Part shown: positions 1-59,154 of the stretch, one piece after another
Numbering within the stretch: the stretch's first letter is position 1
How the letters are laid out: every line of letters begins with the position of its first letter
Made by a program: the position numbers and the translations under genes
Source of the DNA: Myxococcales bacterium
Lineage (GTDB): Bacteria; Myxococcota_A; Polyangia; Polyangiales; Houyiibacteriaceae
Length of the DNA stretch: 63,805 nucleotides
Assembly: GCA_019637115.1 (NCBI GenBank)
Contig: JAHBWH010000026.1
Location: 1-63,805 of the forward strand
Reading direction: 5' to 3'
The notes under the pieces: model-generated
The model's input: only the letters and a program-made list of their open reading frames with translations
What the model was told of the DNA's origin: nothing
Databases searched by the model: none

Positions 1-3000
1 CCAGGCAGCCAGGTGCGCCACGAGCTCGTCGCGCGCGAGCGCCCCTCCGTTTGGCTCGACGTCCGGCTCGACGTAGGCGCAGAGCCGCTTGTCGGCGCCA
101 GCTCCAGGCCAGGCGCGTACCACCGCGCGGCGCACCCGCGGGTGGCGGCAGAGCGCGACCTCGATCTCGCCCAGCTCCACGCGGTAGCCGCGGACCTTCA
201 CCTGGTCGTCGTTGCGGCCGATGAAGCAGAGCTGACCGCGCTCGTCGCAATACGCAAAATCTCCGGTGCGGTAGACGCGGCCGGCGCGCGCGAAGGGATC
301 CGCGGTGAAGCGCGCCGTGGTGAGCTCGGCCTGCCCCCGGCCCCCGTCCGAGAGGTACCCCTCCGCGAGCCCCGCGCCGCCGATCCAGAGCTCGCCGACG
401 AGCCCCTGAGGGCGCGGCTCCCCCGCGGAGTCGACGACGTAGGCATAGGTGCCCGGGAGCGGCCGCCCGATGGGCACGGGATGAACGGGCTCGTCGCCCT
501 CGTGCTCGTACACGGTCGAGGTGACGGCGGCCTCCGTCAGGCCGTAGGCGTTGAACCACCGCGGCCGCCTGCTCGCGCACCTCCCGAGGAAGAGCTCGAG
601 GTGGCGACGCGTCGCGACGTCCGTCCCTACGACGAGCCCCCTCAGCGCCGCTGGCAGCGGCGCGTCCAGACGCGCGAGGTGCTCCATGAAGCCGCCGAAG
701 AACGCCGTCGGCAAGTTCAGGAACGTCAGCTCGCGCTCCTCGACGAAGCGGCGAAAACCTTCGTAGGACTGGAGCAGGTTCGGCGGTGCGAGCACGACGG
801 TGGCGCCGACCGCGAGGGGGGCGAAGAGCTCCTCGATCGCGAGATCGAAGCAAGGGCTCGCGACCTGGAGCGCGCGATCGCTCGGTCCGAGGCCGTAGCG
901 CGCCGCGACCGCGGTCGCCTGCGTCGCGATCGCGCGGTGGGGGACGAGCACGCCCTTCGGGACGCCCGTGGAGCCCGAGGTGAAGATGAGGTAGGCGCCG
1001 CCCTCGCTCGTGGCGAGCACCTCGGCGCGAGGGCCTGCGACCGGTTCGCACCACGAAGCCTCGACGACACGCTCCTCGGCCTTCAACAGGCGCGCGGTCG
1101 CCTCGCATGCGCGAGACGTGAGCAGCAAACGGAGGCCCGCGGCGTCGACGACGTGCTGCAGCCGCTCGAGCGGCAGCGTCGGATCGAGCGCGACGAAGGT
1201 CGCACCCACGTCGAGGATCGCGAGCGAGGCGATGGTCGAGAGGAGGCCTCGCTCCATCGCGACGCCGACTCGATCGCCAGGCCCTACCCCCTCGCTCGAG
1301 AGGCGCGCGGCGAAGGCCGCGGTGCGCTCGGCGAGCTCCGCGTACGAGAGGGCCCCCTCGGCGTCTTCGAGCGCGCGGCCGCTCGGGTGCGCGTCGACGC
1401 TCGCCCGCCACAGCGCGGCCAGCGTCGGCGGGGCGCCCGGGGTCGCTGACGTGGGGTCGGAGAGGCCCGCCAACGAGAGCGAGCGGGCGCGCTCGCGCGC
1501 GTCCAGGATGGGCGCCACGGCGGCCTCGACGTCATGCGGGCCCGCAGCGACCACCTCGATCATCCGGCCGAGCCGCGAGAGCGCGTCGGACGAGATCCTG
1601 CCCTCGTCGGCGAGGAGGCTCGCCCGCCCATCCTCGGCGAGGTGCAGGAGCAGCTCCGCCTCGCCGGGCAAACCCTCGGGGCGCGGCCCTCCGAGCTGGA
1701 CACGCACCGGGAGCGCCGGCAGGTCGAGACCGAAGCGCAAGGGCAAGTCGCGCATCATCCCCCGACGCGCCTGCACGGCCGCGCGCTCATCCGCGACCGC
1801 GGCGAAGAAGAGCGCGACGTCTCGACGGGCGCCCGTCGGCAACGCGAAGGGCGCGTAGGGCAAATGGAGGCGCGCATCCCACGTCGAGTGCTCGGGCGTG
1901 TGCAATCCGAGCAGCGCTGGCTCGTCGGAGTCCATCGCGCGACGGAGGACGAGCGCGAACGCACCGAGCGGATCGACGAGCTCGGGCAGGACGAGCGTCC
2001 GCGCGCGACCCGCCCGCGACCCGCGCCCGAAGGGCGCGGGTGCGCCCGCGCCCTCTCGAAGGCGCGTGACGAAGAAGCGCTCGTGCGGCGCGAGCGCCGC
2101 GGATAGCCCGAGCGCGATCTGCAGGGGACTCGTGGCGAGTCGCGCGCCCACGGGCGGTAGGTCGGTCGGACGCCCATCGAGCGTGCGCGGCTCGCGGAGC
2201 ACGAGCGCCCCCTCGCCTGTCGCGACCGTCCAGCTCGCGCCGTCACGCCCGACGATCTCTCCCGGCACAGCACGTCCATCCGCGGCCACGTACCCGCCGC
2301 CGCGCACGACGAGCACCTCCCCCTCGGCCAGCGCGACCTTGGGCAGACAGAGCGTGTTGACCGACGGCCCGAAGTCGAGCGCGCGCAGCGTGCGATCGAG
2401 GTCACGCGCCGCGCGCGAGAAGTCCAGGGCGCCAAGTCCCAGCTCTGGCGCCGCGACGAGCGGCGAGGCGCTCGGCGAGAGCGCGCCACACGATACGCCG
2501 ACGTCGAGGGGCGCGGCGGTGTCGTCCAGCAGCCTGGGCAAGAGCGCCTCGAAGGCGGCGACCCCGACCTCGAAGCATTTGGCGTTCAGCGTGCCGGTCG
2601 TCTCGTCCTCGGCGATCTCGACCGGCCGCGTCGCGAGCACGGCCCGCGGCTCCCCGTCCACGCCCAGCTCGACCAAGCCCACGTGGTGCTGACGCGCGCC
2701 CGCCAGGATGGCCCGCGTGGTGGCGTGGTCGCCCACGTCCGGGCCGTCGTGATAGGCGATCGCCCGCCGAACGCGCGCGAGCTCCTGGCGCCCGAGCCCC
2801 CAGCGCCCGCTGAAGTCGAAGAGGAGGTCGACCCCCTCGTCGAGCCATTCGCGGAGCTGCTCGCGGCTCGACCCGATCTCGACGCCGAGCGGGTCGGCCC
2901 ACCGAGCGAGCCCCCCGTCGGCGCAGAGCACGCCACGAACGCGCAGGAGGCCGCGTGAGATCGCGACGACGCGTCGGCCGAACCCGCCTTCCCCCAACAC

Positions 3001-3015
3001 CACGCAGGAGCGCAA
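1..3015 (-). CDS. NRPS, formyltransferase-like + C-lobe + adenylation domain (3' end outside window)
   Basis: The frame is open to the left edge, with 1005 residues visible. Residues 1 to about 260 resemble a 10-formyl-THF formyltransferase (N- and C-terminal parts, with HDGP at 89-92). Next comes about 200 residues resembling only the C-terminal lobe of a condensation domain, with no HHxxxDG. The adenylation domain follows, with A3 FTSGSTGVPKG near 675 and A8 GRNDDQVKVRGYR near 940. The window cuts it before A10, so any carrier or later domain is outside. The domain order matches the NRPS at 15709-20274, so the two are paralogues, but the catalytic Asn of the formyltransferase (N90 there) is Ala here, which suggests a weak or lost formyl-transfer activity. 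I chose TTG 3015 because GGTGGAGGG lies just upstream and the homology begins at once. GTG 3003 or 3000 are alternatives. An in-frame stop at 3069-3067 bounds the gene. Amino acid specificity cannot be read safely. Confidence 0.85.
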   Translation of the reverse strand, partial: MRSCVVLGEGGFGRRVVAISRGLLRVRGVLCADGGLARWADPLGVEIGSSREQLREWLDEGVDLLFDFSGRWGLGRQELARVRRAIAYHDGPDVGDHATTRAILAGARQHHVGLVELGVDGEPRAVLATRPVEIAEDETTGTLNAKCFEVGVAAFEALLPRLLDDTAAPLDVGVSCGALSPSASPLVAAPELGLGALDFSRAARDLDRTLRALDFGPSVNTLCLPKVALAEGEVLVVRGGGYVAADGRAVPGEIVGRDGASWTVATGEGALVLREPRTLDGRPTDLPPVGARLATSPLQIALGLSAALAPHERFFVTRLREGAGAPAPFGRGSRAGRARTLVLPELVDPLGAFALVLRRAMDSDEPALLGLHTPEHSTWDARLHLPYAPFALPTGARRDVALFFAAVADERAAVQARRGMMRDLPLRFGLDLPALPVRVQLGGPRPEGLPGEAELLLHLAEDGRASLLADEGRISSDALSRLGRMIEVVAAGPHDVEAAVAPILDARERARSLSLAGLSDPTSATPGAPPTLAALWRASVDAHPSGRALEDAEGALSYAELAERTAAFAARLSSEGVGPGDRVGVAMERGLLSTIASLAILDVGATFVALDPTLPLERLQHVVDAAGLRLLLTSRACEATARLLKAEERVVEASWCEPVAGPRAEVLATSEGGAYLIFTSGSTGVPKGVLVPHRAIATQATAVAARYGLGPSDRALQVASPCFDLAIEELFAPLAVGATVVLAPPNLLQSYEGFRRFVEERELTFLNLPTAFFGGFMEHLARLDAPLPAALRGLVVGTDVATRRHLELFLGRCASRRPRWFNAYGLTEAAVTSTVYEHEGDEPVHPVPIGRPLPGTYAYVVDSAGEPRPQGLVGELWIGGAGLAEGYLSDGGRGQAELTTARFTADPFARAGRVYRTGDFAYCDERGQLCFIGRNDDQVKVRGYRVELGEIEVALCRHPRVRRAVVRAWPGAGADKRLCAYVEPDVEPNGGALARDELVAHLAAW

Positions 3016-3241
3016 CTTCCCTCCACCGCGCCCACGGCTCACCGACCTTGTACGCGCGAACTGTGCTCACAGGCAAGCAACATTTTTCCATCCGAAGCGG
3101 TCAGGCCGAGGTCCGACGCGCGGGGCCGACGTCGAGGTCGAGGACCGCGATCAACCGGTCGAGATACCTGTGGCGAGGCACGAGCCGTCCGCGGGAGCCC
3201 GTGACTGGCGATCGCGCGAGCGCTCGGTGTACAAGGCCCGC

Positions 3242-14455: not shown

Positions 14456-15118
14456 TCAGGGGAGCGTGGTCGCGGTGAGCACGACGTCCCGCTCCCACCG
14501 GACGCTCCCTTCGATCACGTCGCCGACGGCGAACGAGGCCCCGCTCGGCTGCTCGAAGGTCGCCCGCCACGTCCCGCGCAGAGGATCGACCTCGACGCTC
14601 ATCGCCATGAACCCGAGGAACTGCTGGGTCACCAGGTATTGCGCCTTGTACGCGCACTCCTTTGCGCTGAAGATCGCCTTGGCGAGCCGGCCGCGCTCGT
14701 CCGAGGCGCGGGCGGCAAGCCACGCGAGATCCCGCGGCGTGCAGATGCTCTCCCAGAGCTTCGGCGCGAGGGGCTCCGCGTTCTCGACGTCGATCCCGAC
14801 GGCGCGCACCTGCCGAGCCGGCGCGACCGCGGCGGCGCACCACGTCTTCGTGTGCGTGATCGACCCGACGATCCCCGCCGGCCAGACCGGCGCGCGATCC
14901 GCGCCCATCGGGATCTCCAGCGGGCCGACGCCGAGCGTCCCCATCGCCCGACGAGCGAGCGCACGGCCGAGCGCGAACTCCCGCTGACGCGAGACGATCG
15001 CCTTCGCCATCCGCTCGGCTTCGCCCGGATAGAGCGCGTCGAGGTCGACGTCCGCCGTGCGCGGGTCGTCCTCTTCGACCCGCACGACCTCGGGGAGGAT
15101 CGCGCGGAACGGCGTCAT
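14456..15118 (-). CDS. 4'-phosphopantetheinyl transferase (Sfp/EntD type)
   Basis: The 220-residue product transfers phosphopantetheine from CoA to carrier-protein serines. Diagnostic motifs are present: SITHTKTWCAAAV (about 86-98), VGIDVE (about 107-112) with the Mg-binding acidic pair, and FSAKECAYKAQY (about 150-161). Length and motif spacing fit the EntD/Sfp branch that serves secondary metabolism. Its ATG overlaps the stop of the upstream gene by four bases (ATGA), and the NRPS is one gene further upstream. It is therefore very likely the activator of the NRPS and PKS carrier domains in this window. Confidence 0.93.
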   Translation of the reverse strand: MTPFRAILPEVVRVEEDDPRTADVDLDALYPGEAERMAKAIVSRQREFALGRALARRAMGTLGVGPLEIPMGADRAPVWPAGIVGSITHTKTWCAAAVAPARQVRAVGIDVENAEPLAPKLWESICTPRDLAWLAARASDERGRLAKAIFSAKECAYKAQYLVTQQFLGFMAMSVEVDPLRGTWRATFEQPSGASFAVGDVIEGSVRWERDVVLTATTLP

Positions 15119-15702
15119 CGCGGGACCATCGACTCACGCGGCGTCGGCGTCCACGAGACGCGGAGCTCGAGGAAAGGCGCGTCGCCGCCCCCGTGGACGT
15201 CCGTGACCACGACGTCGTCCGCGCCGGTCGCCTCGACCACGCCGTGGAGCCCGCCGCGGAAGTGGTCCCAGACGACGGCAGGGATCGGCGTGGCCGCGTC
15301 GTAGCGGCGGTGCTGGTGCGCCTCTCCGCGATCGACCAGGCGACACGAGAGACCCTCGAAGCTGCTCGGCAAGAGGGCGACGGAGCGTCCGAGCACCTCG
15401 TGCGGTCGCAAGAGACGCGGAGAGACGCTCGCGTCCCGGGCGAGGCGCCGGAACGCGAGGTCGGAGGTCGCGCGCGCGAGCTCGCGCACGGCCTCGGGCC
15501 GACCGCTCACGTCGATGATGGCCTCGTCGACCAGCGCCAACCAGAGCACGGGGTACCAGCCGCCCGCGACCACTTGCGCGAGCGCCTTGGCGACGCCTTG
15601 GCTCCGCGCAGCGAGCGCCTCGCGGACGGGCTCGATCCCGTGGGCGGCGCTCGCTTCGCGGAAGAAACCCGCGAGCAGCTGTCCCGAGACCTGAACGTGC
15701 AC
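15115..15702 (-). CDS. Unknown protein between NRPS and PPTase (DUF2378-like layout, uncertain)
   Basis: The 195-residue protein starts at GTG 15702, seven bases after the NRPS stop, and ends inside the start of the PPTase gene, so it belongs to the operon. It is mainly helical in the first half (an Ala-rich LALVDEAIIDVSGRPE region), with a C-terminal beta part (VWDHFRGGLHGVVEAT, then FLELRVSW). This resembles the layout of the TIGR02265/DUF2378 family that is expanded in myxobacteria, but I cannot confirm membership. It has no signal peptide or membrane span and no catalytic motif I recognise. A regulatory or accessory role in the operon is only inference. Confidence 0.7.
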   Translation of the reverse strand: MHVQVSGQLLAGFFREASAAHGIEPVREALAARSQGVAKALAQVVAGGWYPVLWLALVDEAIIDVSGRPEAVRELARATSDLAFRRLARDASVSPRLLRPHEVLGRSVALLPSSFEGLSCRLVDRGEAHQHRRYDAATPIPAVVWDHFRGGLHGVVEATGADDVVVTDVHGGGDAPFLELRVSWTPTPRESMVPR

Positions 15703-15708
15703 GCCCGC

Positions 15709-18700
15709 TCAGCTCCCGCGTCGCCGCCGCATCAGGTCACGCCGGGCAGCAGCGCGCGCCGCCGCCTTGCCGAGCTCCTGGTGATCGTCGCCCTCCCCTT
15801 CGAGATGACGCGCGAGGTCGCCGAGCACGGGGAAGCGGAAGATGTCGGTGATCGCGAGGCTGGCCCCCGCGAACGCCGCCTTGAGCTCGCGGTGCGCCTG
15901 CACGGCCAGCAGCGAGTGCCCGCCGAGGTCGAAGAAATGATCCTTCGAGCCCACCTGCGAGACGCCGAGGACCTTCTGCCAGACCTCGGCGATCTTGCGC
16001 TCCGAGTCGCTCTCGGGCGCGACGTGCTCGGCCGCTCGCGCGACCTTCACCTCGTCGGGCCTCGGGAGCTTCTTGCGGTCCACCTTCGCGTTCGGCGTGA
16101 GCGGGAAGCTGTCCAAGGTGACGAAGTGGCTCGGGACCATGTACTCGGGCAGCGAGGACGCGAGGTGACGCTTGAGCGCCTCCTCGTCGACCTCCGCGTG
16201 TGTCGTCAGATAGGCGACGAGGCGCTTGTCCCCCGGCGTGTCCTCCCGGGCGATCACGACCGCCTCGCGCACCTCCGGCAGCTCGTTGAGCCGCGACTCG
16301 ATCTCGCCGAGCTCGATCCGGTAACCACGCAGCTTCACCTGGTGGTCGACGCGCCCGAGGAAGTCGAGGACGCCGTCCGCGCGCCATCGGACGAGATCCC
16401 CCGTCCGATACATCCGCCCCCCCTTCACGAAGGGGTTGGCGACGAAGCGCTCCTTCGTGAGCTCGTCCCGGAAGAGGTAGCCGCGCGTCACGCCCGCGCC
16501 GCCGATGTAGAGCTCGCCCGGGACGCCGACCGGCACGGGCTCGAGGTTCGCGTCGAGCACGTAGAGCTGCGTGTTCGCGATCGGGGTGCCGATCGGCGTG
16601 ATGCCGTCACCCGGCTCGGCCGTGTGTGTCGACGACCAGATCGTCGTCTCCGTCGGCCCGTACATGTTCTCGATGCGCGCCCCGGTCAGCGAGCCGAGCT
16701 CCTTGACGAGCGCGCCCGGCAGCGCCTCGCCGCCGATCATGAAGCAGCGCAGGCCTCGGAGCGCCCCGCGCGCGCGATCGTCGAGCGTGAGCAAGCGGGC
16801 CATCGAGGGCGTGCACTGGAGGTGCGTGACTCGCTCACGGTCGAGCTGCGCCGGAACGCTGAAGTCCTCCGAGGGGAGCGTGCTGACCCGGACCGGCTCG
16901 GAGGTCTCGCGGATCACCTCGCCGACCCGCCGGATGCTCTCGAGGACCTTGGGCGTCGGCACGCCATAGTCCACGAGGCACGCGATCTCGTCGACGCCGA
17001 TGGCCTTGAGCTGATTGACCCGACGGACGGCGTCCTCGACGGTCCCGAAGAAGCCGCTGTCCTCGAAGTAGCGGAGGAACGCGAAGTCGAGGATCGCCTC
17101 CATCTCCTCCTCGTCGAGCGAGCGAAGATCGAGGTCGAAGGGGTTCTCCACCCCCTTGGGCTTCTTGAAGGCGGGGAAGGCCCACGCGTATTGCTTGATG
17201 AGCCCCGCGGCGCTGCGGAGGTAGCCCTTCATCGGCTCCCGCGCGACCTCGCGCGCCTTCTCGCGCGTCTCGTCGAGGTAGGTGTGGAGCATCAGCGTGA
17301 CCTTGTAGTCCGCCGGGTTCTTCCCCTGAGCCACCAGCTCTTCGCGGTAGATGCGGATCTTGTCGGCGACCTCGTCGATCGACTGGCCGAGCAGGTGGGT
17401 CAGCACGTTCGAGCCCGCGCGCGCGGCGTCGCGGTAGGTCTCGGGGTTGCCCGCGGTGGTCACCCAGACGTCGAGCTCGCGGCTGACCGGGCGAGGCTGC
17501 GTGACGACCGAGAGCACCGACCCGTCGGCCCGCCCCGTCGGGAAGTCGACCGCCTCGCCGCGCCAGAGCCGCCGCACGACGTCGATCGAGTCGAGCATCG
17601 CCTGCTTGTTGTTCGGTGGCGCGTTCTCGGGCCGCAGGACGAAGTCGTCGGGCTGCCAACCGGACGCGAAGGCCAGGCCGACGCGGCCGTTCGAGAGGTT
17701 GTCGATGATCGCCCACTCCTCGGCGATCCGGATCGGGTGGTGGAGCGGCGCGACGCAAGAGCCCGCGCGGATGTCGAGGTTCTGCGTGACGGCAGCCACC
17801 GCCGCGCCGGTCACGCTCGGGTTCGGGTACGGGCCGCCGAACGCGTGGAAGTGGCGCTCGGGGGTCCAGACGCTGGTGAAGCCGATGCGGTCACCGAGCT
17901 TAGCGCCCTCGAGGAGCACCTCGTACTTCTTCGGGCCCTGCCCGTCGTCGTTGCCCCAATACATCAGGCCGAACGCCATGGGCTTGGCGGCGATCTCGGG
18001 GTCGACCCCGGCCGGCTTCACGCGCTCGCGCTCGCGATGGACGACCACCTTGAACCCGCGGGCGAGCGTCCAGAAGAGCTCGAGCACGGAGATGTCGAAC
18101 GAGAGGCTCGTCACCGCCAAGAGCACGTCCTGGCTTCCGTCCTCGGCGCGCGGGACGCGGGCGTCCATCCCCGTGAAGAAGTTCGAGGCGTTGCGGTGCT
18201 CGACCATCACGCCCTTCGGGCGCCCCGTGGAGCCCGACGTGTAGATCACGTAGGCGAGGTGTTCGGGTCGCGACGTCTCGCCGACGCGATGCGCGGGGGC
18301 GCGCGGGATGTGCGGATCGGCGTCGACGACGATCACCGTCGCGTCCGTGTGCAGGCGCGCCTTCGCCTCCTGGTGGGTGACGACGATCTTCGCGCGGCTG
18401 TCCTCGAGCATCAGCTCGATGCGGTCGGCGGGGTACTCGGGATCCAGCGGCAGGTACGCCCCGCCCGCCTTCAAGATGCCGAGCGCGCCCGTGACGAGCT
18501 CGAGCGAGCGCTGGCAGTAGAGCCCGACGACGGCGTCCGGCCCCACGCCGTGCTGCCGGAGCACGTGGGCGACGCGGTTCGCGCGCTGATCGAGCTCGCG
18601 ATAGGTGAGCTCGAGGCCCTCGAAGACGAGCGCGACCGCGTCTGGGGTGCGATCGACCTGCTCTTCGAAGAGCTGATGCATGGTGGCGTCGGCGCGGTAG

Positions 18701-20274
18701 GGCGTGCCCGTCGCGTTCCACTCGTGGAGGATGCGGCGCCGCTCGACGTCGGTGAGCAGCGGCAATTTGGCGACGAGCGTCTCGTCCTCACCCGTCGCCG
18801 CGAGCAGCACCGAGAGCCGACGCACGAGCGCCTCGACCTCGTCCGTGGAGATCCGTCGCGCGTCGTAGTGGACGGCCGCCTCGGCGAGGGTGAGCGCCGA
18901 GCCCTCCACGAGCGCCGTCGCGGCAGGCGCGATCACGACGTCGAAGCGGGCGGTCGTGGCGGCGGGCCTCCGCGCGACGAGGTCCCGCGGGAAGGTGAAG
19001 CGCTCGTGGACCCGCGCCAGCTCCTTGTCGAGGAGCGCCTGCGCGTCTCCGACCGTCCCCGACACGTCGACGAGGAGCGGCACGGCCGGCGCGAAGAAGT
19101 CCTCGACGCCCACGACGGCGTCGCCGAGGCGCGCGCCGCGATACCCGACGTGGAAGTGGGTCTTGCCACCGACCCGCCCGAGGAACGCGGCGACGCCCGT
19201 GACCCACGCGGGCCCCTCGAGGCCGCTCGGCGCGAGCTCGAGCTGGGCCGGCTCCGCGCCGGCGCCCGCCGTGACGCCTGGCACCTCGACGACGTCGAGC
19301 TCCTCGAGGCGCTTGGCCCAGAAGTCCTCGTGCTTCGCCGCCTCGGCGTTCTTCTCGGTCAAGGTCGCGCGGAGCGCAGCGTCCGGGGTGGGCAGCGTCA
19401 GCCCGACGAGCGTCGAAGGGCAGCGCGGCTTGCCCTCGAGATCGCTGAGCGCGAGCAGCTTGACCGCCCCCGTGCCGCACGCGACGACCGCGCCCTCGGG
19501 GGTGGCCTCGAGCACCTTGCCGATGGGTCCGCTCGCCGAGCTGGGCTCCGCCGCCCGGATCAGCACGACATCGCCGGGCCCGACGAGGACCTTCGGCAGC
19601 CCGAGCGGGTTGGGGTACTTCGGGCCGTAGTCGAGCGCGCGAACGGGGACGACGATCGACTCGGCGTCCTGGGCCCAGTCGACGAGCGCCATCGCCTCGG
19701 GGCGATCGTTCTTCGCGAAGTAGGTGCGGCGCGAGAGATCTTGCGGGACCCCCTTGCCCTCACCCCGCTCGATCTTCTCGAGCACTTCGGGAAACGACTC
19801 GATGGCCGCCTCGTAGCAGCGCTGGTTGAGCTCGAGCGCGGTCGCGAGCTTCGGGACCTCGAAGAAGCGCTGGGCGAGCACGGCGCCCTCGTCGACGCCG
19901 CCCTCGATGCGGTGCCAGGTCACGCCGTGCTGGGGCTCGCGGTTCAGCAGCGCCCAGTTCGGCGCGTTGAGCCCGGCGTACTTCGGCAGCGGGCCATCGT
20001 GGAAGTTCACCGCGCCCTGGCGCGCGCGCGCGAGGATCGCGTCGGGGACGATGCGGAGGTTCGCGATGGAGAAGAACCAGTCGAACTCCTCGCTGAGCCG
20101 CTCCGCGAGCCCCTTGCCGGGCTCGAGCACCGGGATGCCCCGACCGCGCGCCCACGAAGCGATGTCGCGGTTGTCGGTGATGACCCCCCGCACGGTGTGC
20201 CCGCGCTGCAGGAGGATCTCGGCGCACTGCACGAGCAGCGACTCGGCGCCCATCAGGTAGGAGCTGAAGCTCAT
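15709..20274 (-). CDS. NRPS: formyltransferase / C-lobe / A domain with inserted luciferase-like monooxygenase / PCP
   Basis: This 1521-residue protein opens with a 10-formyl-THF formyltransferase domain keeping the catalytic Asn90, His92 (NFHDGPLPKYAG) and Asp128 (EGGVDEG), with its C-terminal part to about 285. A stretch at about 320-480 resembles only the C-terminal lobe of a condensation domain, without HHxxxDG. The A domain follows, with A3 YTSGSTGRPKG at 678. Between A4 (FDISVLELFW) and A5 (YGPTE at 1205) sits a luciferase-like monooxygenase of about 355 residues (766-1120) of the MupA/Atu3671 type. A8 is near 1318, A10 has NAKVDRKK, and the carrier Ser is 1454 in LGGHSL. There is no thioesterase. 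I infer it loads an amino acid, N-formylates it and oxidises it on the carrier. ATG 20274 has AAAGG upstream; the longer frame upstream lacks homology. Confidence 0.95.
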   Translation of the reverse strand: MSFSSYLMGAESLLVQCAEILLQRGHTVRGVITDNRDIASWARGRGIPVLEPGKGLAERLSEEFDWFFSIANLRIVPDAILARARQGAVNFHDGPLPKYAGLNAPNWALLNREPQHGVTWHRIEGGVDEGAVLAQRFFEVPKLATALELNQRCYEAAIESFPEVLEKIERGEGKGVPQDLSRRTYFAKNDRPEAMALVDWAQDAESIVVPVRALDYGPKYPNPLGLPKVLVGPGDVVLIRAAEPSSASGPIGKVLEATPEGAVVACGTGAVKLLALSDLEGKPRCPSTLVGLTLPTPDAALRATLTEKNAEAAKHEDFWAKRLEELDVVEVPGVTAGAGAEPAQLELAPSGLEGPAWVTGVAAFLGRVGGKTHFHVGYRGARLGDAVVGVEDFFAPAVPLLVDVSGTVGDAQALLDKELARVHERFTFPRDLVARRPAATTARFDVVIAPAATALVEGSALTLAEAAVHYDARRISTDEVEALVRRLSVLLAATGEDETLVAKLPLLTDVERRRILHEWNATGTPYRADATMHQLFEEQVDRTPDAVALVFEGLELTYRELDQRANRVAHVLRQHGVGPDAVVGLYCQRSLELVTGALGILKAGGAYLPLDPEYPADRIELMLEDSRAKIVVTHQEAKARLHTDATVIVVDADPHIPRAPAHRVGETSRPEHLAYVIYTSGSTGRPKGVMVEHRNASNFFTGMDARVPRAEDGSQDVLLAVTSLSFDISVLELFWTLARGFKVVVHRERERVKPAGVDPEIAAKPMAFGLMYWGNDDGQGPKKYEVLLEGAKLGDRIGFTSVWTPERHFHAFGGPYPNPSVTGAAVAAVTQNLDIRAGSCVAPLHHPIRIAEEWAIIDNLSNGRVGLAFASGWQPDDFVLRPENAPPNNKQAMLDSIDVVRRLWRGEAVDFPTGRADGSVLSVVTQPRPVSRELDVWVTTAGNPETYRDAARAGSNVLTHLLGQSIDEVADKIRIYREELVAQGKNPADYKVTLMLHTYLDETREKAREVAREPMKGYLRSAAGLIKQYAWAFPAFKKPKGVENPFDLDLRSLDEEEMEAILDFAFLRYFEDSGFFGTVEDAVRRVNQLKAIGVDEIACLVDYGVPTPKVLESIRRVGEVIRETSEPVRVSTLPSEDFSVPAQLDRERVTHLQCTPSMARLLTLDDRARGALRGLRCFMIGGEALPGALVKELGSLTGARIENMYGPTETTIWSSTHTAEPGDGITPIGTPIANTQLYVLDANLEPVPVGVPGELYIGGAGVTRGYLFRDELTKERFVANPFVKGGRMYRTGDLVRWRADGVLDFLGRVDHQVKLRGYRIELGEIESRLNELPEVREAVVIAREDTPGDKRLVAYLTTHAEVDEEALKRHLASSLPEYMVPSHFVTLDSFPLTPNAKVDRKKLPRPDEVKVARAAEHVAPESDSERKIAEVWQKVLGVSQVGSKDHFFDLGGHSLLAVQAHRELKAAFAGASLAITDIFRFPVLGDLARHLEGEGDDHQELGKAAARAAARRDLMRRRRGS

Positions 20275-20422
20275 CGTTTCGCGACCTTTCCCTCGTCGTG
20301 GTCCGTCGCAGCGGGAGGTACCCCATTCGGCGACGATGTCGGATATGCCATTCGCGCAGGAAGCCAGCAAAGCCCCCGCTGGGTCACGTCACGGGATCGT
20401 GACCCAGCGTCACGTCCCCCCT

Positions 20423-23004: not shown

Positions 23005-23042
23005 ATGGCCACAGCCCCCTCGTGAGCAGCTGACGCCCGGCC

Positions 23043-23813
23043 TCAGCGGCGACGCAGCAGGCGCTGGCGCAGCGCGTCGGCGAAGAGCACCGCCGCGAAG
23101 GGCAGGTCGTCGATCAGGTAGCGCCGCACGAGGCGGTCGGGCTCTTGCACCATCCGGTGCACCCACTCGGTGCCGGTCCGCTGCATCCACGCGGGCGCGC
23201 GCTCGACCTGCCCCGCCAGGAAGCTGAAGGTGATGCCGACACCGATCATCCATGCCTGGGGATAGAGCGGCCGCAGGGCCGCGATGACCTCCTCCTGTTT
23301 CGGCGAGCCCATCCCCACGAAGAGGATGTCGGGAGCCTCCTCGCCGATCGCCTCTCGGAGCTCCTCGAGGTCACTGGGGGTCGGGGGGTTCGCGACGAAG
23401 GGGCTGGCCGTGCCGAGCACGCGGAGCTCGGGGTGCGCGCGCTCGAGGGCCGCCCGCGCGCCCTGCGCCGCCCCCTCGGCCCCCCCGAGGAGGAAGAGGC
23501 TCCGCCCCTCGCGCGCCGCCCGGCGGGCGATCTCCCCCGTCAACGTCGACCCCGCCACGCGCTCGGGGAGCGGCCGCCCCATCAGCTGCGACGCCCACAC
23601 GAGCGGCATCCCGTCGGCCACCCGCAGGTCGGCCGCGCCGTAGAGCCCGCGCGCGTGGGGATCGAGCGCCGCCCGGCGCACGATGTCGAGGTTGGCCGTC
23701 ACGAGCCACCCCCCTTCCCCGCGGCCGAGCGAGGCGAAGAGGTGCTCGAGGAGGTCCTCGGAGCCGCAGGACGCGAGGCGCATGCCCAAGAGCTCGATGT
23801 CCGGGAAGTTCAT
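23043..23813 (-). CDS. WecG/TagA/CpsF family glycosyltransferase
   Basis: The 256-residue length is typical of the family that adds the second sugar, often ManNAc or ManNAcA, to a lipid-linked first sugar. Motifs are clear: WLVTANLDIVRRA (about 36-48), ADGMPLVWASQLMG, FLLGGAEGAAQGA, GMGSPKQEEVI, GVGITFSFLAG and APAWMQRTGTEWVHRM followed by RRYL, which marks the membrane-binding C-terminus. It is convergent with the initiating transferase (38 bases apart) and divergent from the PKS. It is probably the second step of repeat-unit assembly. Confidence 0.92.
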   Translation of the reverse strand: MNFPDIELLGMRLASCGSEDLLEHLFASLGRGEGGWLVTANLDIVRRAALDPHARGLYGAADLRVADGMPLVWASQLMGRPLPERVAGSTLTGEIARRAAREGRSLFLLGGAEGAAQGARAALERAHPELRVLGTASPFVANPPTPSDLEELREAIGEEAPDILFVGMGSPKQEEVIAALRPLYPQAWMIGVGITFSFLAGQVERAPAWMQRTGTEWVHRMVQEPDRLVRRYLIDDLPFAAVLFADALRQRLLRRR

Positions 23814-23933
23814 GCGCCTTTCGTACTACGGCCGGCGCGCCTCGCAGGCCGAAATGACGCGGCACACCTCACGCACCTCGCGTGCGTGCTGGACGCCGCG
23901 CCTGTGGTATGTCGCCCGGTGGAGGGTCACGAC

Positions 23934-30491
<6,558 letters not shown>

Positions 30492-48710: not shown

Positions 48711-48936
48711 GGGACTCCTTCTCCGAGACATGCGGCCGATGGCGGCGGGACGATGAGCACTCTTCCGTGACGAGCGTGACACCCCGTCGGACCGGGGGGC
48801 AGTGTGCCGCATTCTCGAGGGGGGGGGACGAGGTGACGCTCGCGACCCGCAGGAACGACGCTCGCAACGCCCGCGCTTCCGAGCCGTTCGTCGTCGCGCC
48901 GAGAGCCTGCTACCGTGCCGCCCCGAGGTGTGGACG

Positions 48937-50766
48937 ATGGTGTGGACGATGGCGCGTAAGACGACTCGAACCTGGACACTGCTCGGCTTGCTCTCGCTCG
49001 CCGCGTGCGTGGCCGAGCCCCCGGCCGCCTCCACCTCGCCCATCATCAACGGCGCCGCCACCACGGGGGATCCCTGGGTCGTCGCGGTCGTGAACCTCGG
49101 CGTCACCGGCTCGCCGGGGCTTTGCACGGGCTCGCTCGTCGGCCCCTTCGGGGTCCTCACCGCCAAGCACTGCGTCTATCGCGAGGCGCCCGGCGGCTGG
49201 GTGCCGATCCCCGTCGACGAGCTCCGCGTCATCGTGGGCACGGACATCAACCGACCTGGCGGGATCCAGCAGATCGCGACGGTGCACTCGTACGAGTCGA
49301 CGCCCGGCGTTTACCGCGACGCCGACCTCGGCAACGGGGACGACATCGCCATCGTGCTGATGCGCACCTCGTTCGGCGGCGTCACCCCGATGCCCTTCGG
49401 TCGCACCGTCCCCGCGGTCGGCAGCCCCGCCCGCATCATCGGCTTCGGCCGCACGAGCCCAACGACCGACGAGAGCGGCGTGAAGTTCATGGGCGACACC
49501 ACCGTCGTCGGCGCCGGCGCGCGCCTCATCGAAGCCGGCGGAGGCTCGTGGACCTGCCAAGGCGACAGCGGCGGCCCCCTCCTGGTCGACGGCCGCGTCG
49601 TCGGCGTGACGAGCTTCGGCGTCGGCGGCTGCGGATCGCGGAGCCGCCACTACTTCGTGTCGGTGCCGCGACACGCCGCGCTCGTCGAGCGCGCCGTCAC
49701 CTTCGAGCCGCCGTGCGAGCCACAGCCCGAGGTCTGTAACGGCATCGACGACGACTGCGACGGGGTCATCGACCCTGGGTGCGCGTTCCTCGGCCAGCCC
49801 TGCGAGACCGCCGCCGACTGCCGCGACATGGCGTGCGAGTCGATCGACGGCAGCCGCATCTGCGTGCGCCCTTGCGACCCGCGACAGCCCATCCCCTTCT
49901 GCCCCCTCGGCTTCCACTGCTCGGTGGCGGGCTGCGGCGAGGGGTTCTGCGCGCCGGGCGAGGGACACCTCGTCGACGGGGAGGCCTGCACGCGTGACAG
50001 CGAGTGCACCTCGGGCCAGTGCACGTCGATCGGCGGCGCGATGCGCTGCGGCCGCCAGTGCACGGCCGGCACCGAGGACTGCGTCACGGGCACGGTCTGC
50101 GAGCCCTCGGCCGACGGTTGCGGCGTCTGCACGCCCTACGAGGAGGCCACCGCCCCGAGGCCGGCCGGCGCGCCCTGCGAGACCGGCGCGGACTGCTCGA
50201 GCGGCCAATGCGCCCCCGGCGAAGGCGCCGGCCCGAGCTTCTGCACCCGCCCGTGCGGCGAGGAGGCCTCCTGTCCGAGCGGCATGCGTTGCCGTGACGG
50301 CCTCTGCGCCCGCGGCGACGTGCGCGCCCCCGGCACGAGCTGCGCCCACCCGGACGATTGCGCCGCCGGGAGCGAGTGCCTCGCGGTCGGAGACGACCTG
50401 CTCTGCCTCGAGCCCTGCGACGAAGGTTGCCGCGCGGGCTCGACCTGCGCGGAGACGAGCGAGGGCAGCCGCTGTGTCCCCGACGGGATCGACCTCGGTG
50501 AGCCCTGCGCCGCCAACGGCGACTGTCGCAGCGGGATCTGCGCGGGGGTGTGCACGCGGCTGTGCGAAGACCTCGTCTGCCCCGAGGGCTACGATTGTCG
50601 CCCCGCGGGCCCGCTCAGCGGCTGCTTCCCTCTGGCCGAGGAGCCGACGCCGCCAGCCGAGTCCGGAGGGTGCTCCGTGCCCGTGGGCAGCGTCGGCGGT
50701 CTCGCGCCGCTGTGGATCGCGGGCGGCCTCGCCCTCGCGCTGGCCCGCCGGCGTCGGCGGTCGTGA
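48937..50766 (+). CDS. Secreted trypsin-like serine protease with Cys-rich repeats and MYXO-CTERM-like tail
   Basis: The protein has 609 residues. A lipoprotein-type signal (LLSLAAC) is followed by a chymotrypsin-fold domain (about 30-255) with N-terminal IINGAA and a complete triad: His in LTAKHCV, Asp in DDIAIVL, Ser in CQGDSGGPLL. Next comes VCNGIDDDCDGVIDPGC, the MopE-type motif common in myxobacteria, then many Cys-rich segments of the C-x(5)-C-x(6)-C type to about 570. The end is one Cys, a hydrophobic stretch and RRRRR, as in MYXO-CTERM sorting tails, although that signal usually has two Cys. It is probably displayed on the surface. The start is ATG 48937 (GAGG upstream); ATG 48949 is possible. 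Confidence 0.88.
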   Translation: MVWTMARKTTRTWTLLGLLSLAACVAEPPAASTSPIINGAATTGDPWVVAVVNLGVTGSPGLCTGSLVGPFGVLTAKHCVYREAPGGWVPIPVDELRVIVGTDINRPGGIQQIATVHSYESTPGVYRDADLGNGDDIAIVLMRTSFGGVTPMPFGRTVPAVGSPARIIGFGRTSPTTDESGVKFMGDTTVVGAGARLIEAGGGSWTCQGDSGGPLLVDGRVVGVTSFGVGGCGSRSRHYFVSVPRHAALVERAVTFEPPCEPQPEVCNGIDDDCDGVIDPGCAFLGQPCETAADCRDMACESIDGSRICVRPCDPRQPIPFCPLGFHCSVAGCGEGFCAPGEGHLVDGEACTRDSECTSGQCTSIGGAMRCGRQCTAGTEDCVTGTVCEPSADGCGVCTPYEEATAPRPAGAPCETGADCSSGQCAPGEGAGPSFCTRPCGEEASCPSGMRCRDGLCARGDVRAPGTSCAHPDDCAAGSECLAVGDDLLCLEPCDEGCRAGSTCAETSEGSRCVPDGIDLGEPCAANGDCRSGICAGVCTRLCEDLVCPEGYDCRPAGPLSGCFPLAEEPTPPAESGGCSVPVGSVGGLAPLWIAGGLALALARRRRRS

Positions 50767-50820
50767 GCCCGCTTCCTCATTCCGCTTGAACGCGGCGCGC
50801 GCACCCCTCACAAAGAGCAA

Positions 50821-53745
50821 ATGCACGAGGCGGAGCTCCCACTCACGCCGACGCAGGAGGGGATGTTGTTCAACGGGCTCGCGGAGGCGGGCGCCGAGGT
50901 GCAACAGCTCGTCGTGCAGCCGCCGCGTTCCTTCGACGACGTCGAGCAAATGCGGCTCGCCTGGGGGGCGGCGCTCGCTCGCCACCCGATGCTCCGCGCT
51001 TCGTTCCGCTGGCGAGGCGTCACCGCGCCCTGCCAGCGGGTGCACGAGGCGGTCGAGCTCCCCTGGGAGGTACTTCACCAGGAGCTCGATCGCGAGGCCG
51101 CCTTGCGGCTCTTCCTCCGCCTCGACCGGCTGACGCCGCTCCCGCTCGAGAGAGCGCCCGCGTTTCGGCTCACGCTGCTCCGCGCGCGGGACGGCGACGC
51201 GCTCGTGTGGACACACCACCACGCGCAGCTCGACGGGCGCTCGCTCGAGCTCGTCCTGCTCGACGTGCTGGGCGCGCTCGCGGGCGCGCCGCCTCCCGCC
51301 GCGCCCTCTCCGTCCGTCGAGCCCCACCTTCGCGCCATCGAGGCCGGCCGCGGCCCGCGCCAGGACGAGTTCTTCGCGTCGCGCTTCGCCGACCTCTGGG
51401 AGCCGACCCCGCTGCCGGGACCCCGGCCAGCAGCCTCGGCCGAGGCAGAAGCCGACGAACGACACCTCGAGCACGAGTACATGGCGTGCGGGGAGTGGCT
51501 CGACGCGCTCGAGCGGCAGGGCGAGGCGGAGGGCTTCACCCTCGCGACCGCGATCCAGGCGGCGTGGGCCACCGTGCTGGCGCGCTACGCCGGCACGTCC
51601 GACGTCACCTTCTGCGTCACGCGCGCCTGCCGGCACGTCACGTCGGAGAGCGCGGCGATGGTCGGCTGCCTCATCAACACGGTGCCGCTGCGGGTCGACG
51701 TCGACGCCAGCCCCTCGGCGCGGGCGCTCGCGAGGTCGCTCCGCGCCGAGAGCCTCGCCCTCCGTGAGCACGAGACGGTCGCGCTACGCCGCGTCGCCGA
51801 GCTCTCGCCCCTCACGTCCGCGGCAGACCTCGCCCGGTCGGTGGTGGTCGTCGAGGGGCATGGCCTCGAAGACCGCGTCCGCGCGAGCTTCCCCGAGCTC
51901 GCGTCCTGGCGGCTGTCGCTCCGCGGGCGGAGCGCCGCGCCGCTCACGTTGGCCGCGTACCGGCGCCCGGACGGTCTGCAGCTCGTCGTCGAGCACGACC
52001 GACGTCGGGTCGCCGCCTCCATCGCGTCGACGCTCGGCCGGCGGGTGGAGCGCGCGCTGCGGGCGTTCGCCACCGATCTGGATCGCGCGCCCGCCGAGGC
52101 GCCGCTGACGTTCTCGACCGAGCACGCGCCGCTGCGCGGCGAGGACGTCGCGATCGACACGAGCCCGCCGACCTTCCCCGCGCGCTTCGTGGCGGCCGCG
52201 GAGCGCTCGCCCCACAAGGTGGCCCTCGTGGACGAAGCCACGGGGCGCGAGGTCTCCTACGCCGAGCTGCTCGCGCAGGCGCGTGCCTGCGTCGAGCGTC
52301 TCCGCGCCGACGGCGCGAAGGCGGGGGACGTCGTCGCGGTCTGGGCCGGCCGCCGCGTCGAGACGATCGAGGCGATGGTCGCGTGCGCGCTCGGAGGCCT
52401 GGTCTACTTCCCGCTCGATCCCGCGTATCCCCCCGACCGTACCGCCTTCGTCCTCCGAGACTCCGGCGCGCGCTGGTACCTCGCCCCCTCGTATGTCCCC
52501 GCGACGGACCTCCCCCCGCTCGACGACGTGACGCTGGTGCGCCTCGAGCCGCCCGCGGCCCCGCGACCGCCGGAGCTCGCCGACGCCCCGCGCGTGGTCG
52601 GCCTCGGCGACGGCCCGCACACGGCCGCGCGGCGCGACCGAGGCCCCGCGGACCACGCAGACGCGACGACGCCCGCCGCGGGTGAGGCCGCATACCTCAT
52701 CTACACCTCGGGAAGCACCGGCACCCCCAAAGGCGTGCTCGTCTCCCATGGGAACCTCGCGGCGCATACGTCCGCCGCGCTCGAGACCTACGCGCTCAGC
52801 GACTCAGATCGGGGGATGCTCTTCGCGTCGCCGAGCTTCGACGTCTCGCTCGAGGAGGTCGTCCCGCTCCTCTCCGTCGGCGGCTCGCTCGTCATCCGCT
52901 CGGACGCCACCGCGAGCTCACCCGACCGCTTGCTGAGCACGGTCGCGAGCCACGGCGTGACCGTGCTCCAGCTCCCGACGGCGTTCTTCCACGAGCTCGC
53001 GCGGCACATGGAGCGGCGCCGCGCGTCGCTTCCAGCGAGCGTTCGGCTCGTCGTGATCGGGGGCGAGCGGGCGAGCGCGTCGGCCTGTCGGCGCTTCCGG
53101 TCCGTCGCCCCCGACGTCCGCCTCGTGAACGCCTACGGGCCGACCGAGGTCACGATCACCGCCACCAGCTACGACGTGCCACGCGAGGTGCCCAGCACCA
53201 TCCCGATCGGGCGCCCCTTCGGCCGCTGCCACGCCTACGTGCTCGACGCGCGAGGTGCCCCCGTCCCCACCGGCGCGCGGGGCGAGCTCGCCCTCGGCGG
53301 GCCCCAGGTCGCGATCGGCTATCACGATCGCCCCGAGCCGACCGCGGCGCGGTTCGTCGCCGATCCGGTCGACCCTTCGCGTGGGCGCGTGTACCTGACG
53401 GGCGATCTGGTGCAGCTCGGCGCGGGGGGCGAGCTCGAGTTCCTCGGGCGCCGCGACGGCCAGGTGAAGGTCCGAGGGTTTCGCATCGAGCTCGCGGAGG
53501 TCGAGGCCGCGCTCGAGCAGGACGACGACGTCGCCGAGGCGGTCGCCACGGTGCTGGACGCGCCGAGCGGCGAGCCCACGCTCGTCGCGTTCGTCGTGGG
53601 GCGGACCCCGCGCCTCGACCTCGTCGCCATCGACCGCCGCTTGCGCCAGCGGCTGCCGCCGCAGCACGTCCCCGCGCGGATCGCGTCGCTCGACGCCCTG
53701 CCCCGCGCGCCCGGCGGCAAGCTCGACCGACGCGCGCTGCAGTGA
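50821..53745 (+). CDS. NRPS condensation-adenylation protein; PCP-TE continues in frame after TGA
   Basis: The 974-residue product has a condensation domain (about 5-430) with an intact HHAQLDG at 133-139 (HHxxxDG), and an adenylation domain (about 460-970). The latter has A3 IYTSGSTGTPKG near 625, A4 PSFDVSLEEVV, A5 NAYGPTEVTI near 771, A7 YLTGDLV, A8 GRRDGQVKVRGFRIEL and A10 PGGKLDRR. The stop TGA (53743-53745) follows A10 directly. The next codons continue without a frame change into a carrier and thioesterase, so the natural gene was probably C-A-PCP-TE. Alternatives are a base error, a nonsense mutation, readthrough, or a real split. The gene follows the protease after 54 bases and is the only visible protein here with a full C domain. 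Confidence 0.92.
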   Translation: MHEAELPLTPTQEGMLFNGLAEAGAEVQQLVVQPPRSFDDVEQMRLAWGAALARHPMLRASFRWRGVTAPCQRVHEAVELPWEVLHQELDREAALRLFLRLDRLTPLPLERAPAFRLTLLRARDGDALVWTHHHAQLDGRSLELVLLDVLGALAGAPPPAAPSPSVEPHLRAIEAGRGPRQDEFFASRFADLWEPTPLPGPRPAASAEAEADERHLEHEYMACGEWLDALERQGEAEGFTLATAIQAAWATVLARYAGTSDVTFCVTRACRHVTSESAAMVGCLINTVPLRVDVDASPSARALARSLRAESLALREHETVALRRVAELSPLTSAADLARSVVVVEGHGLEDRVRASFPELASWRLSLRGRSAAPLTLAAYRRPDGLQLVVEHDRRRVAASIASTLGRRVERALRAFATDLDRAPAEAPLTFSTEHAPLRGEDVAIDTSPPTFPARFVAAAERSPHKVALVDEATGREVSYAELLAQARACVERLRADGAKAGDVVAVWAGRRVETIEAMVACALGGLVYFPLDPAYPPDRTAFVLRDSGARWYLAPSYVPATDLPPLDDVTLVRLEPPAAPRPPELADAPRVVGLGDGPHTAARRDRGPADHADATTPAAGEAAYLIYTSGSTGTPKGVLVSHGNLAAHTSAALETYALSDSDRGMLFASPSFDVSLEEVVPLLSVGGSLVIRSDATASSPDRLLSTVASHGVTVLQLPTAFFHELARHMERRRASLPASVRLVVIGGERASASACRRFRSVAPDVRLVNAYGPTEVTITATSYDVPREVPSTIPIGRPFGRCHAYVLDARGAPVPTGARGELALGGPQVAIGYHDRPEPTAARFVADPVDPSRGRVYLTGDLVQLGAGGELEFLGRRDGQVKVRGFRIELAEVEAALEQDDDVAEAVATVLDAPSGEPTLVAFVVGRTPRLDLVAIDRRLRQRLPPQHVPARIASLDALPRAPGGKLDRRALQ

Positions 53746-53826
53746 CCCGCTGCGGCTGCCGCCTCGGCCACGACGGAGCCTGTCTCCGCCGACGAGGCGC
53801 GGCTGCTCGACCTGTTCCGGGAGGTC

Positions 53827-54804
53827 TTGGAGAGCCCCGAGATGGGGGTCGACGACCGCTTCTTCGACCGAGGCGGCAGCTCGATCCGCGCCGTCCGCTT
53901 GATCTCGCGGATCGAGGAGGAGCTCCAAGGCGCGCCCACGGTGGCGACGATCCTGACGCACCAGACCCCGCGCGCGATCGCCGCCTGGCTGCGAGAGCAT
54001 GGGCAATCCACGCCCTCCGAGTCGCTCGTCCTCCTCAACGGCGACCACTCGAAGCGCACCCCGCTCTACTGTCTGCTCGGGCTGCACCTCTACGAAGAGA
54101 TGGCGCGCTCGTTCCGCCGACCCGTCTACGGCGTGTACGTGGAAGAAGATCTCGAGGCGATGAGCCGCGCGGTGCGCACGCCCGATCTCGCGGCGGCGTA
54201 CCTCCGCGCCATCGAGCGACAGGCGGGGCAGCCGCCGAAGCTGCTGCTCGGCTTCTCGTACGGGGCGCTCGTCGCGTTCGAGGCGGCGCAACAGCTCACC
54301 CGTCGCGGCACGCCGCCCGATCTGCTCGTGATGCTCGACCCCCTCTTGCCGAGCATGCTCGAAGAGGGCCCACTCGACCGAGCCTACAACCTCGCCGCGC
54401 GCCTGCTCCGCGATCCGGCGAGCATCGCGCCGCGGCTGGCGCGGAGGGTCGCGGCGCGCGTCCGCGCGCTCGACGTCGTCCCGACGCGGGCGACCGGAGA
54501 CGACCTCGTCTGGCAGATCCGAGAGCGCGCCTACATGCGCGCGTCCGAGGACTACGAGGCCAACGAGCTCGCGCCCTATCCGGGCCGCTGCCAGGTCTAC
54601 GTCGCGCAGGACCGCTCCCCCGCGCACACGCCCCGGGTCGTCGCCGGGTGGCGCTCGCTGATCCGGCAGTGCGAGATCCACGTCGTCCCGGGCGACCACG
54701 GCACCCTGCTCCAGCCCCCGTACGTGGACGAGATCGCCGAGCGCCTCGGCAGCGCCCTCCGGGCGCGGACCTCGATGCGGATGTTGGCGGTCGACGGGGA
54801 GTAG
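53827..54804 (+). CDS. NRPS PCP-thioesterase part (homology begins at 53746, same frame as the gene upstream)
   Basis: From TTG 53827 this gives 325 residues. The frame is open back to the TGA at 53743-53745 and reads like a normal carrier N-terminus (SADEARLLDLFREVLE), but it has no ATG or GTG there. TTG 53827 would cut off much of carrier helix 1, and ATG 53842 more. The carrier has GGSS with the modified Ser at 53881-53883. The thioesterase has GFSYG (Ser at 54256-54258), Asp in VMLDPLLPS and His in PGDHGTLLQPP. It should release the chain made on the upstream C-A protein. Whether it is made as a separate protein is doubtful. Confidence 0.75.
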   Translation: MESPEMGVDDRFFDRGGSSIRAVRLISRIEEELQGAPTVATILTHQTPRAIAAWLREHGQSTPSESLVLLNGDHSKRTPLYCLLGLHLYEEMARSFRRPVYGVYVEEDLEAMSRAVRTPDLAAAYLRAIERQAGQPPKLLLGFSYGALVAFEAAQQLTRRGTPPDLLVMLDPLLPSMLEEGPLDRAYNLAARLLRDPASIAPRLARRVAARVRALDVVPTRATGDDLVWQIRERAYMRASEDYEANELAPYPGRCQVYVAQDRSPAHTPRVVAGWRSLIRQCEIHVVPGDHGTLLQPPYVDEIAERLGSALRARTSMRMLAVDGE

Positions 54805-54849
54805 TCGCGGGCAGTAGTCGCGGCGCGCGGCCTCGGGTATGACGCCCCC

Positions 54850-56034
54850 ATGCTCTCCACGCTCCTCGGCCTCGGCGGCGCCGCCGCGACGCTCCCCGGC
54901 ACCCTCGAGCTCGCGCTCCTCACGGCGGCGGGCGCCCTGCCGCCGACCGAGCCCGGCGCACCCACGCGGCCCGTTCGGAGGCTCGCCGTGGTCGTCCCCG
55001 CGCACGACGAAGAAGGCGGCATCGCGTCGTGCGTGAAGAGCCTCCTCGGCTGCGCGCGCCCGCAAGCCCCCGTCGAGGTCCTCGTCGTCGCCGACAATTG
55101 CAGCGACGGCACCGCGGCGCGGGCACGCGAAGCGGGCGCGACCGTGCTCGAGCGCCACGACACCGAGCGGCGCGGCAAGGGCTACGCGCTCGAGCTCGCG
55201 TTCGACACCTTGCTCGAGCGCTTCCCCGACCTCGACGGCGTCTTGGTCGTCGACGCGGACACCGAGGTCGACCCGGACTTCCTCGTCTGCGCCGAGCGAT
55301 GGTTCGCGGCCGGCGCCGACGCGGTGCAGGCCCGCTACCTCGTGCGCAACGCGGACGAGTCGACCCGCACGGCGCTCATGAACGCGGCCTTCATGGCGTT
55401 CAACGTGCTCCGCCCGCGCGGCCGCGCCCGCCTCGGGCTCTCCGCTGGCATCCTCGGCAACGGCTTCGGGCTCAGCCGCCGCTCCCTCGAGGCGGTGCCC
55501 TACACCGCGCGCTCCGTCGTGGAGGATCTCGAGCACCACCTCCACCTCGTCCGCGCGGGTTTCAAGGTCGAGTTCATGGACGAGACCGCCGTCCGCGCCG
55601 ACTTTCCCGTCGGCGAGAGAGGCGCCGACACGCAGCGCGCGCGCTGGGAGGGCGGGCGCCTGCGGATGCTCCGCGAGCACGCGCCTCCGCTCGCCAAAGA
55701 GGTCTTGGCCGGAGACCTCCGGCTCGCCGAGCCCCTGCTCGAGCTCCTGCTGCTGCCGCTCGCGACCCACGTCGGCCTCCTCGGGGCCCTCGCCCTCGTG
55801 CCCTTCCCGCCGACGCAGCTCTACGCGGCGACCGCGCTCGGCGTCGTGGGCGCCCACGTCGCGACGGCGATGAAGGTCGGCGGCGCGGGCCGGACCGAGC
55901 TCGCCGCGCTCGCGCGCGCGCCGCTCTACGTGCTCTGGAAGGCGCGCGTGCTGCCGAAGATCCTGCAAGCGGCGTCCCGCGATCAGGCGTGGGTGCGGAC
56001 CGCTCGCGCGACCGAAGAGACGCCGGCGGGCTGA
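54850..56034 (+). CDS. Glycosyltransferase family 2, membrane type
   Basis: The 394-residue protein shows the family 2 motifs AVVVPAHDEEGGIASCVKSLL (about 46-66), VVADNCSDGTAARARE, the metal motif GVLVVDADTEVDPDF and the late QRARWEGGR, the Q-x2-RW type seen in processive or lipid-linked transferases. A weakly hydrophobic N-terminus and two hydrophobic segments near the end indicate membrane association. It follows the PCP-TE reading frame by 46 bases on the same strand, so a peptide-making and a sugar-adding enzyme are paired again, as in the PKS-GT2 pair at 23934-31453. Confidence 0.9.
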   Translation: MLSTLLGLGGAAATLPGTLELALLTAAGALPPTEPGAPTRPVRRLAVVVPAHDEEGGIASCVKSLLGCARPQAPVEVLVVADNCSDGTAARAREAGATVLERHDTERRGKGYALELAFDTLLERFPDLDGVLVVDADTEVDPDFLVCAERWFAAGADAVQARYLVRNADESTRTALMNAAFMAFNVLRPRGRARLGLSAGILGNGFGLSRRSLEAVPYTARSVVEDLEHHLHLVRAGFKVEFMDETAVRADFPVGERGADTQRARWEGGRLRMLREHAPPLAKEVLAGDLRLAEPLLELLLLPLATHVGLLGALALVPFPPTQLYAATALGVVGAHVATAMKVGGAGRTELAALARAPLYVLWKARVLPKILQAASRDQAWVRTARATEETPAG

Positions 56035-56057
56035 GCCCCGCGTCCGAACGAGGTCGG

Positions 56058-58193
<2,136 letters not shown>

Positions 58194-58209
58194 CTAGCGT
58201 CGCGCCACC

Positions 58210-58395
58210 ATGGCTGATCACCACGCGCCCGGGCTCCCGGAGATCCACGACGAAGCCGCCGACACCCCGATGTGGCTCCCGCTGCTCGGCCTCGGCCTGC
58301 TGATCGTCGCGTCGCTCTTCTTCATCATCCGCGCGGCGACCGCCGACGAGGCCCCCGTCGTCGACGGCGTCGGCGTCGTCGACGACTTCGAGTGA
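58210..58395 (+). CDS. Small single-span membrane protein
   Basis: The 61-residue protein has a hydrophilic N-terminus, one strong hydrophobic span (MWLPLLGLGLLIVASLFFII, about 21-40) and an acidic Val/Asp-rich tail. I recognise no family. It is divergent from ligA (91 bases). The 168 bases after it, to 58563, contain no gene or repeat that I can see. Confidence 0.6.
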   Translation: MADHHAPGLPEIHDEAADTPMWLPLLGLGLLIVASLFFIIRAATADEAPVVDGVGVVDDFE

Positions 58396-58563
58396 GCCGA
58401 TACCACTCGGTCAGAGCCCGGAGCTCAGTGCGGCGCGAGAGGGGTGGTCCGCGCCACGAAGCGGTAGACCAAAGCGGTCACCTCGAGGCAGATCCGCTGC
58501 CTCGACGATCACCCGCACGGGCCAGGGGGCTTCCGCTTCGGGTCGCCAAAGGGACCGCGTAGC

Positions 58564-59154
58564 TCAGGCCGTGGGGTCGTCCTTCGGCTCGACCTTGGCG
58601 TCTTCCTTGGGGTCGCGCCGCAAGACGCTCGCGAGGCGGGCCTCGAGCTCCTCGATGCGACCCTGCAGCCGCTTCACCTCGCCCTGGAGCTGCTGGACGT
58701 GGCCCATCGCGACGCCGATGACCGCCTTCACGCGATCGTCGGCGCTCGCGCGGAGCTCCTCGATCGGACCAGGCTTCTTCTTCGGCTCCTCGGGCTCCGC
58801 GGCGCCCTCCGCGTCCTCGCTCACCTCGCGCTGCAGCAGCTTCGAGAGCGACGCCGGCAGCGAGCCCACCAGACGGTGACGCCCCTCCTCGATCATCGAC
58901 TTCAACGTCGAGCGCCGGACGTCGCCTTCGCCCTTCTTCTCTTCCTCGTAGATGATCTGCGCGAGCGTGACGTTGGTGAGGTCCTCTTTCGACTTGTTGT
59001 CGATGATGCGGACGTCCTCGCCCTCGCGGACGTACTCCGCGATCTGCTGCAGCGTCACGTAGCGGCTGTCGCGGGTGTCGTAGAGCTTACGATTCGCGTA
59101 GCGCTTGATGATGCGCGCTTCCGGCGCGGGTCGGTCGGCTCTGGGCTGCTCCAC
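58564..59154 (-). CDS. PhaR-like polyhydroxyalkanoate synthesis regulator
   Basis: The 196-residue protein has the PHB/PHA accumulation regulator DNA-binding domain at about 15-75: RIIKRYANRKLYDTRDSRYV, then YVREGEDVRIIDNKSKEDLTNVTLAQIIYEEEKK. The C-terminal half is a coiled coil (GHVQQLQGEVKRLQGRIEELEARL), probably for oligomerisation. In other bacteria PhaR represses phasin and PHA synthesis genes. No PHA gene is in this window, so the target here is unknown. GTG 59154 has GGAG seven bases upstream. Confidence 0.88.
   Translation of the reverse strand: MEQPRADRPAPEARIIKRYANRKLYDTRDSRYVTLQQIAEYVREGEDVRIIDNKSKEDLTNVTLAQIIYEEEKKGEGDVRRSTLKSMIEEGRHRLVGSLPASLSKLLQREVSEDAEGAAEPEEPKKKPGPIEELRASADDRVKAVIGVAMGHVQQLQGEVKRLQGRIEELEARLASVLRRDPKEDAKVEPKDDPTA

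Follow-up and report, generated by a model that had tools for sequence, protein, structure and literature searches.

A TGA codon in frame between the adenylation and carrier domains of a Myxococcales peptide synthetase gene, probably arising from a recent nonsense change

Introduction

How should a peptide synthetase gene be read when a stop codon closes its frame between two domains of a module, and the same frame then carries on into the remaining domains? The question is raised by contig JAHBWH010000026.1 of a Myxococcales bacterium (assembly GCA_019637115.1), of which we analysed a stretch of 63,805 nucleotides (positions 1 to 63,805), hereafter called the window. We consider it probable that a single monomodular non-ribosomal peptide synthetase (NRPS) gene, with condensation, adenylation, carrier and thioesterase domains in that order (C-A-PCP-TE), underwent a recent nonsense change in this strain. 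This reading is weighed below against a base error, a two-gene design and readthrough of the UGA; the confidence given to each of the four is a judgement and was not computed.

Organization of the interrupted synthetase gene

The gene lies on the forward strand (50821-54804) and its translation follows one reading frame from an ATG at 50821 through a TGA at 53743-53745 to a TAG at 54802-54804. The TGA-ended upstream part (C-A, 50821-53745, 974 amino acids) contains an HHxxxDG motif (as HHAQLDG) and the A10 motif GGKLDR, and was matched in Pfam by the condensation domain PF00668 (1.3e-37), the adenylation domain PF00501 (3e-78) and the adenylation C-terminal domain PF13193. The TGA falls directly after A10, the junction reading GGKLDRRALQ, stop, PAAAAASATTEPVSADEARLLDLF. 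No insertion follows, and the frame continues for 352 amino acids up to the TAG (53746-54804), encoding a carrier (PP-binding, PF00550, 1.6e-12) and a type-I thioesterase (PF00975, 5e-17). The initial annotation had described a stop right after A10 and a continuation without insertion into a complete carrier and thioesterase, and both the translation and the two downstream Pfam matches agree with it.

The downstream part keeps the carrier serine S46 (in FFxxGGSS) and, in the thioesterase, GFSYG at residues 169-173 (S171), D198 and H318. Its AlphaFold2 model has a mean pLDDT of 89 and places carrier helix 1 at residues 15-28; in a fold search this model matched the PCP-TE or termination-module structures 4zxh, 3tej, 8w2d and 5ja1, and the fold is complete. 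GC3 is about 0.92 both upstream and downstream of the TGA. The locus has the domain order of an NRPS termination module in one frame (Pfam, the two halves run separately), together with the carrier serine and the thioesterase Ser/Asp/His residues, and what sets it apart is that the TGA at 53743-53745 keeps these domains from lying on a single translatable chain. Matching the two halves by sequence or fold brought up, among others, the termination modules of AB3403 (4zxh), EntF (5ja1) and SrfA-C (2vsq); these share the C-A-PCP-TE order but are uninterrupted single chains, about 20% identical in their PCP-TE part.

Homologues and their junctions

By far the best match was found in one other genome of the same genus, G001 (G001:C161:27673-31527; L036:5674-9528), where the homologue is one unbroken C-A-PCP-TE ORF of 1,284 amino acids. 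It aligns with the focal gene without a gap through the TGA, which stands opposite a sense codon, at an identity of 62% over the A core and 47% over the PCP-TE part. The same contig carries ligA (about 80% identical) and a trypsin/MYXO-CTERM gene (57-62%), both no more than about 12 kb from the synthetase gene, as well as, further from it, a short match to the region of a probable phaR gene; all are neighbours of the focal gene in the window. Since these neighbours are shared, the G001 gene is probably an ortholog, a call based on one same-genus genome with a rearranged neighbourhood. The two loci thus have in common the domain order, the ungapped junction and the neighbours ligA and trypsin/MYXO-CTERM gene, and differ in that the 1,284 codons of the homologue are open without a stop and in the order and orientation of the surrounding genes. 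The clustering of ligA, the trypsin/MYXO-CTERM gene and the NRPS gene in both same-genus genomes (L074 and L036, against 48757-59112 of the window), in differing order and orientation, points to local rearrangement.

Within the class, a PCP-TE match reached E <= 1e-15 in 60 of the 318 genomes. Thirty-seven junctions were displayed. In 26 of these loci an A10-type motif precedes the carrier, and none of the 26 has a stop in the A-carrier linker; the remaining junctions have another upstream domain (e.g. PKS) or a contig edge. Internal stops had been flagged in the matches of three homologues (L045, L053 and G243:C26); those of L045 and L053 were rejected as junction stops, being the terminal stops of the genes themselves. 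A TGA flagged in an adenylation gene of the family (G020) was likewise rejected, as it sits upstream of a FadD-like frame and not within it. Six matches from plasmid and genome collections were distant (about 25-31% identity) and uninformative on the junction.

As in a young pseudogene, intact relatives do not share the stop. It had been proposed at the outset that homologues split at the same place, with a conserved start and binding site for the carrier-thioesterase protein, would reveal a true two-gene design; when the comparison was run, the homologues proved to be fused and had no such start or site. Judged from these alignments, the comparison favours a nonsense change or a base error and speaks against a two-gene design. 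The initial annotation had left three options, and two of them, the nonsense change and the base error, are favoured by the intact same-genus gene, the lack of a stop in the homologues displayed and the lack of a downstream start, while the third, programmed readthrough, is left unsupported.

Initiation of the downstream half

Were the C-A and PCP-TE parts separate proteins, the second would have to be started by coupling or from an internal start. As the initial annotation had stated, no in-frame ATG or GTG lies between the TGA and the carrier, and the first in-frame start-type codon after the TGA is, again as stated there, a TTG inside carrier helix 1 (53827-53829, forward strand); it encodes Leu 28, the last residue of that helix in the AlphaFold2 model. 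This leucine is nearly invariant among 31 aligned relatives, and several relatives likewise have TTG at codon 28, inside a fused gene. A GGGAGGT just 5′ of the TTG speaks for a start at this point, but the spacing from GGAGG to TTG is only 2 nt, and initiation there would cut away nearly all of helix 1. Because it codes for the nearly invariant residue that closes the helix, the TTG is not a credible start. Two further codons were absent from the initial annotation: an in-frame ATG at 53842, deeper inside the carrier, and a GTG on the forward strand (53742-53744) that overlaps the TGA as GTGA. The overlap would suit a coupled start, but the GTG lies in the -1 frame, and the 366-codon frame that starts from it has a G+C pattern (0.92/0.75/0.50) unlike that of coding sequence.

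As the TTG, the ATG and the GTG are each unsuitable, the carrier-thioesterase half cannot plausibly have an independent start. No promoter- or terminator-like site was found between the two halves. A split NRPS module would have a start and a ribosome-binding site of its own for the PCP-TE protein, common to homologues; we found no conserved start or ribosome-binding site for this half in the focal sequence and its homologues, which are fused, and we regard two separate proteins as extremely unlikely.

Under the nonsense change that we prefer, there was formerly one gene of about 1,327 codons, and the TGA would be a recent replacement of a sense codon in the A-carrier linker, a stretch that is not conserved. 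Translation would end behind the adenylation domain and yield the C-A protein, which may still activate an amino acid but would do so without a carrier or thioesterase in cis. The carrier-thioesterase half would not be made in useful amounts, since no usable start lies ahead of it and ribosomes that restarted at the overlapping GTG would read the wrong frame. What is left would then be a young pseudogene, its product lost.

Condition of the downstream half

In a relative-rate comparison, the mean identity to 35 outgroups was 0.282 for the PCP-TE part in the window and 0.283 for the intact G001 copy. Conserved positions, defined as those that are the same in at least 75% of the 35 outgroups, were kept at 38 of 49 in the window copy and at 38 of 49 in the intact one. 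By these measures neither decay nor lost constraint is apparent in the downstream half. When 352 codons were evolved in a simple neutral simulation, 25% of the runs were still free of stops at 0.05 substitutions per site and just 8% at 0.1, so that any break would be young. Taken together, the undecayed downstream half and the simulation imply that the TGA is recent, absent in life, or read through, and the state of this half is equally expected under a base error or readthrough.

Should the TGA have arisen by mistake in the consensus or the assembly, the organism itself would carry an intact gene, and the downstream half of that gene would look fully constrained, as it does. The TGA is known from one genome of the species, and the draft state of that assembly (434 contigs) also lends itself to such an error. 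Against it, none of the window's other genes with a Pfam match was seen split by a stop, and the matches listed for this genome were free of internal stops in the searches for adenylation, for carrier and for SelB/EF-Tu-type sequences. This absence of other broken genes argues against a poor assembly, yet it cannot vouch for a single base. Where coverage is good, an assembly seldom has a wrong base in its consensus. On balance we hold a base error to be unlikely, although its chance is appreciable.

Readthrough of the UGA

The intact frame on either side of the TGA, the lack of an insertion and the conserved downstream half would also suit programmed or tolerated readthrough, in which some ribosomes decode the UGA and a full-length synthetase is made beside the C-A form. 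Readthrough-favouring tRNA-Trp variants have been reported as relatively prominent in Myxococcota, among them genes whose anticodon stem has 4 bp and which increased readthrough of UGA in E. coli (2026, PMC13092985), and this lends the idea some weight. The MYXO-CTERM-like protein and the gene content of the window point to a myxobacterial origin. However, the one tRNA-Trp gene found in this genome, a tRNA-Trp(CCA) adjoining secE, has a full 5-bp anticodon stem, A9 and G24, and therefore lacks the features tied to readthrough in that study (a 4-bp stem, or A9C or G24A). The TGA is absent from every homologue displayed, and TGA is the usual stop in the window, terminating 29 of 33 ORFs. The RNA downstream of the TGA folds no differently from shuffled sequences (z -1.26), and no Rfam element after the stop was supported. 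Neither tRNA-Sec (RF01852) nor SelB (TIGR00475) gave a match over the cut-off in this genome; selenocysteine recoding, which requires both, was rejected. The titles and abstract openings searched describe no recoded NRPS. We consider readthrough improbable, and more doubtful still the proposal that, at the A-carrier junction, it would yield a carrier-less C-A protein along with the full synthetase and so fix how much loading enzyme is made relative to the complete module.

Implications and other biosynthetic loci

If the nonsense change is real, one substitution would have cost this strain a small peptide product, and the former synthetase would appear in pipeline annotations as two genes, C-A and TE, that look unrelated. 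The finding is that of an ordinary interrupted gene and changes little beyond it.

The window holds other biosynthetic genes. A single-module NRPS on the reverse strand (15712-20388) has an N-terminal formyltransferase (PF00551), a luciferase-like monooxygenase (PF00296) set inside the adenylation domain (PF00501 in two stretches) and then a carrier, and is adjoined by a phosphopantetheinyl transferase gene (14459-15133). On the forward strand, a one-module PKS (23034-30488) comprising KS, AT, KR, DH, carrier and thioesterase adjoins sugar-transferase and polysaccharide-export genes. An adenylation-domain protein on the reverse strand (1-3066) is cut by the contig end, and the roughly 550 residues ahead of its A domain have no Pfam match (E 1e-4). 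Elsewhere in the same genome there is a second carrier-thioesterase frame (L012:5-1057, on G000:C143), 32% identical to the focal one; because it is cut at the contig end, its upstream domains lie off that contig.
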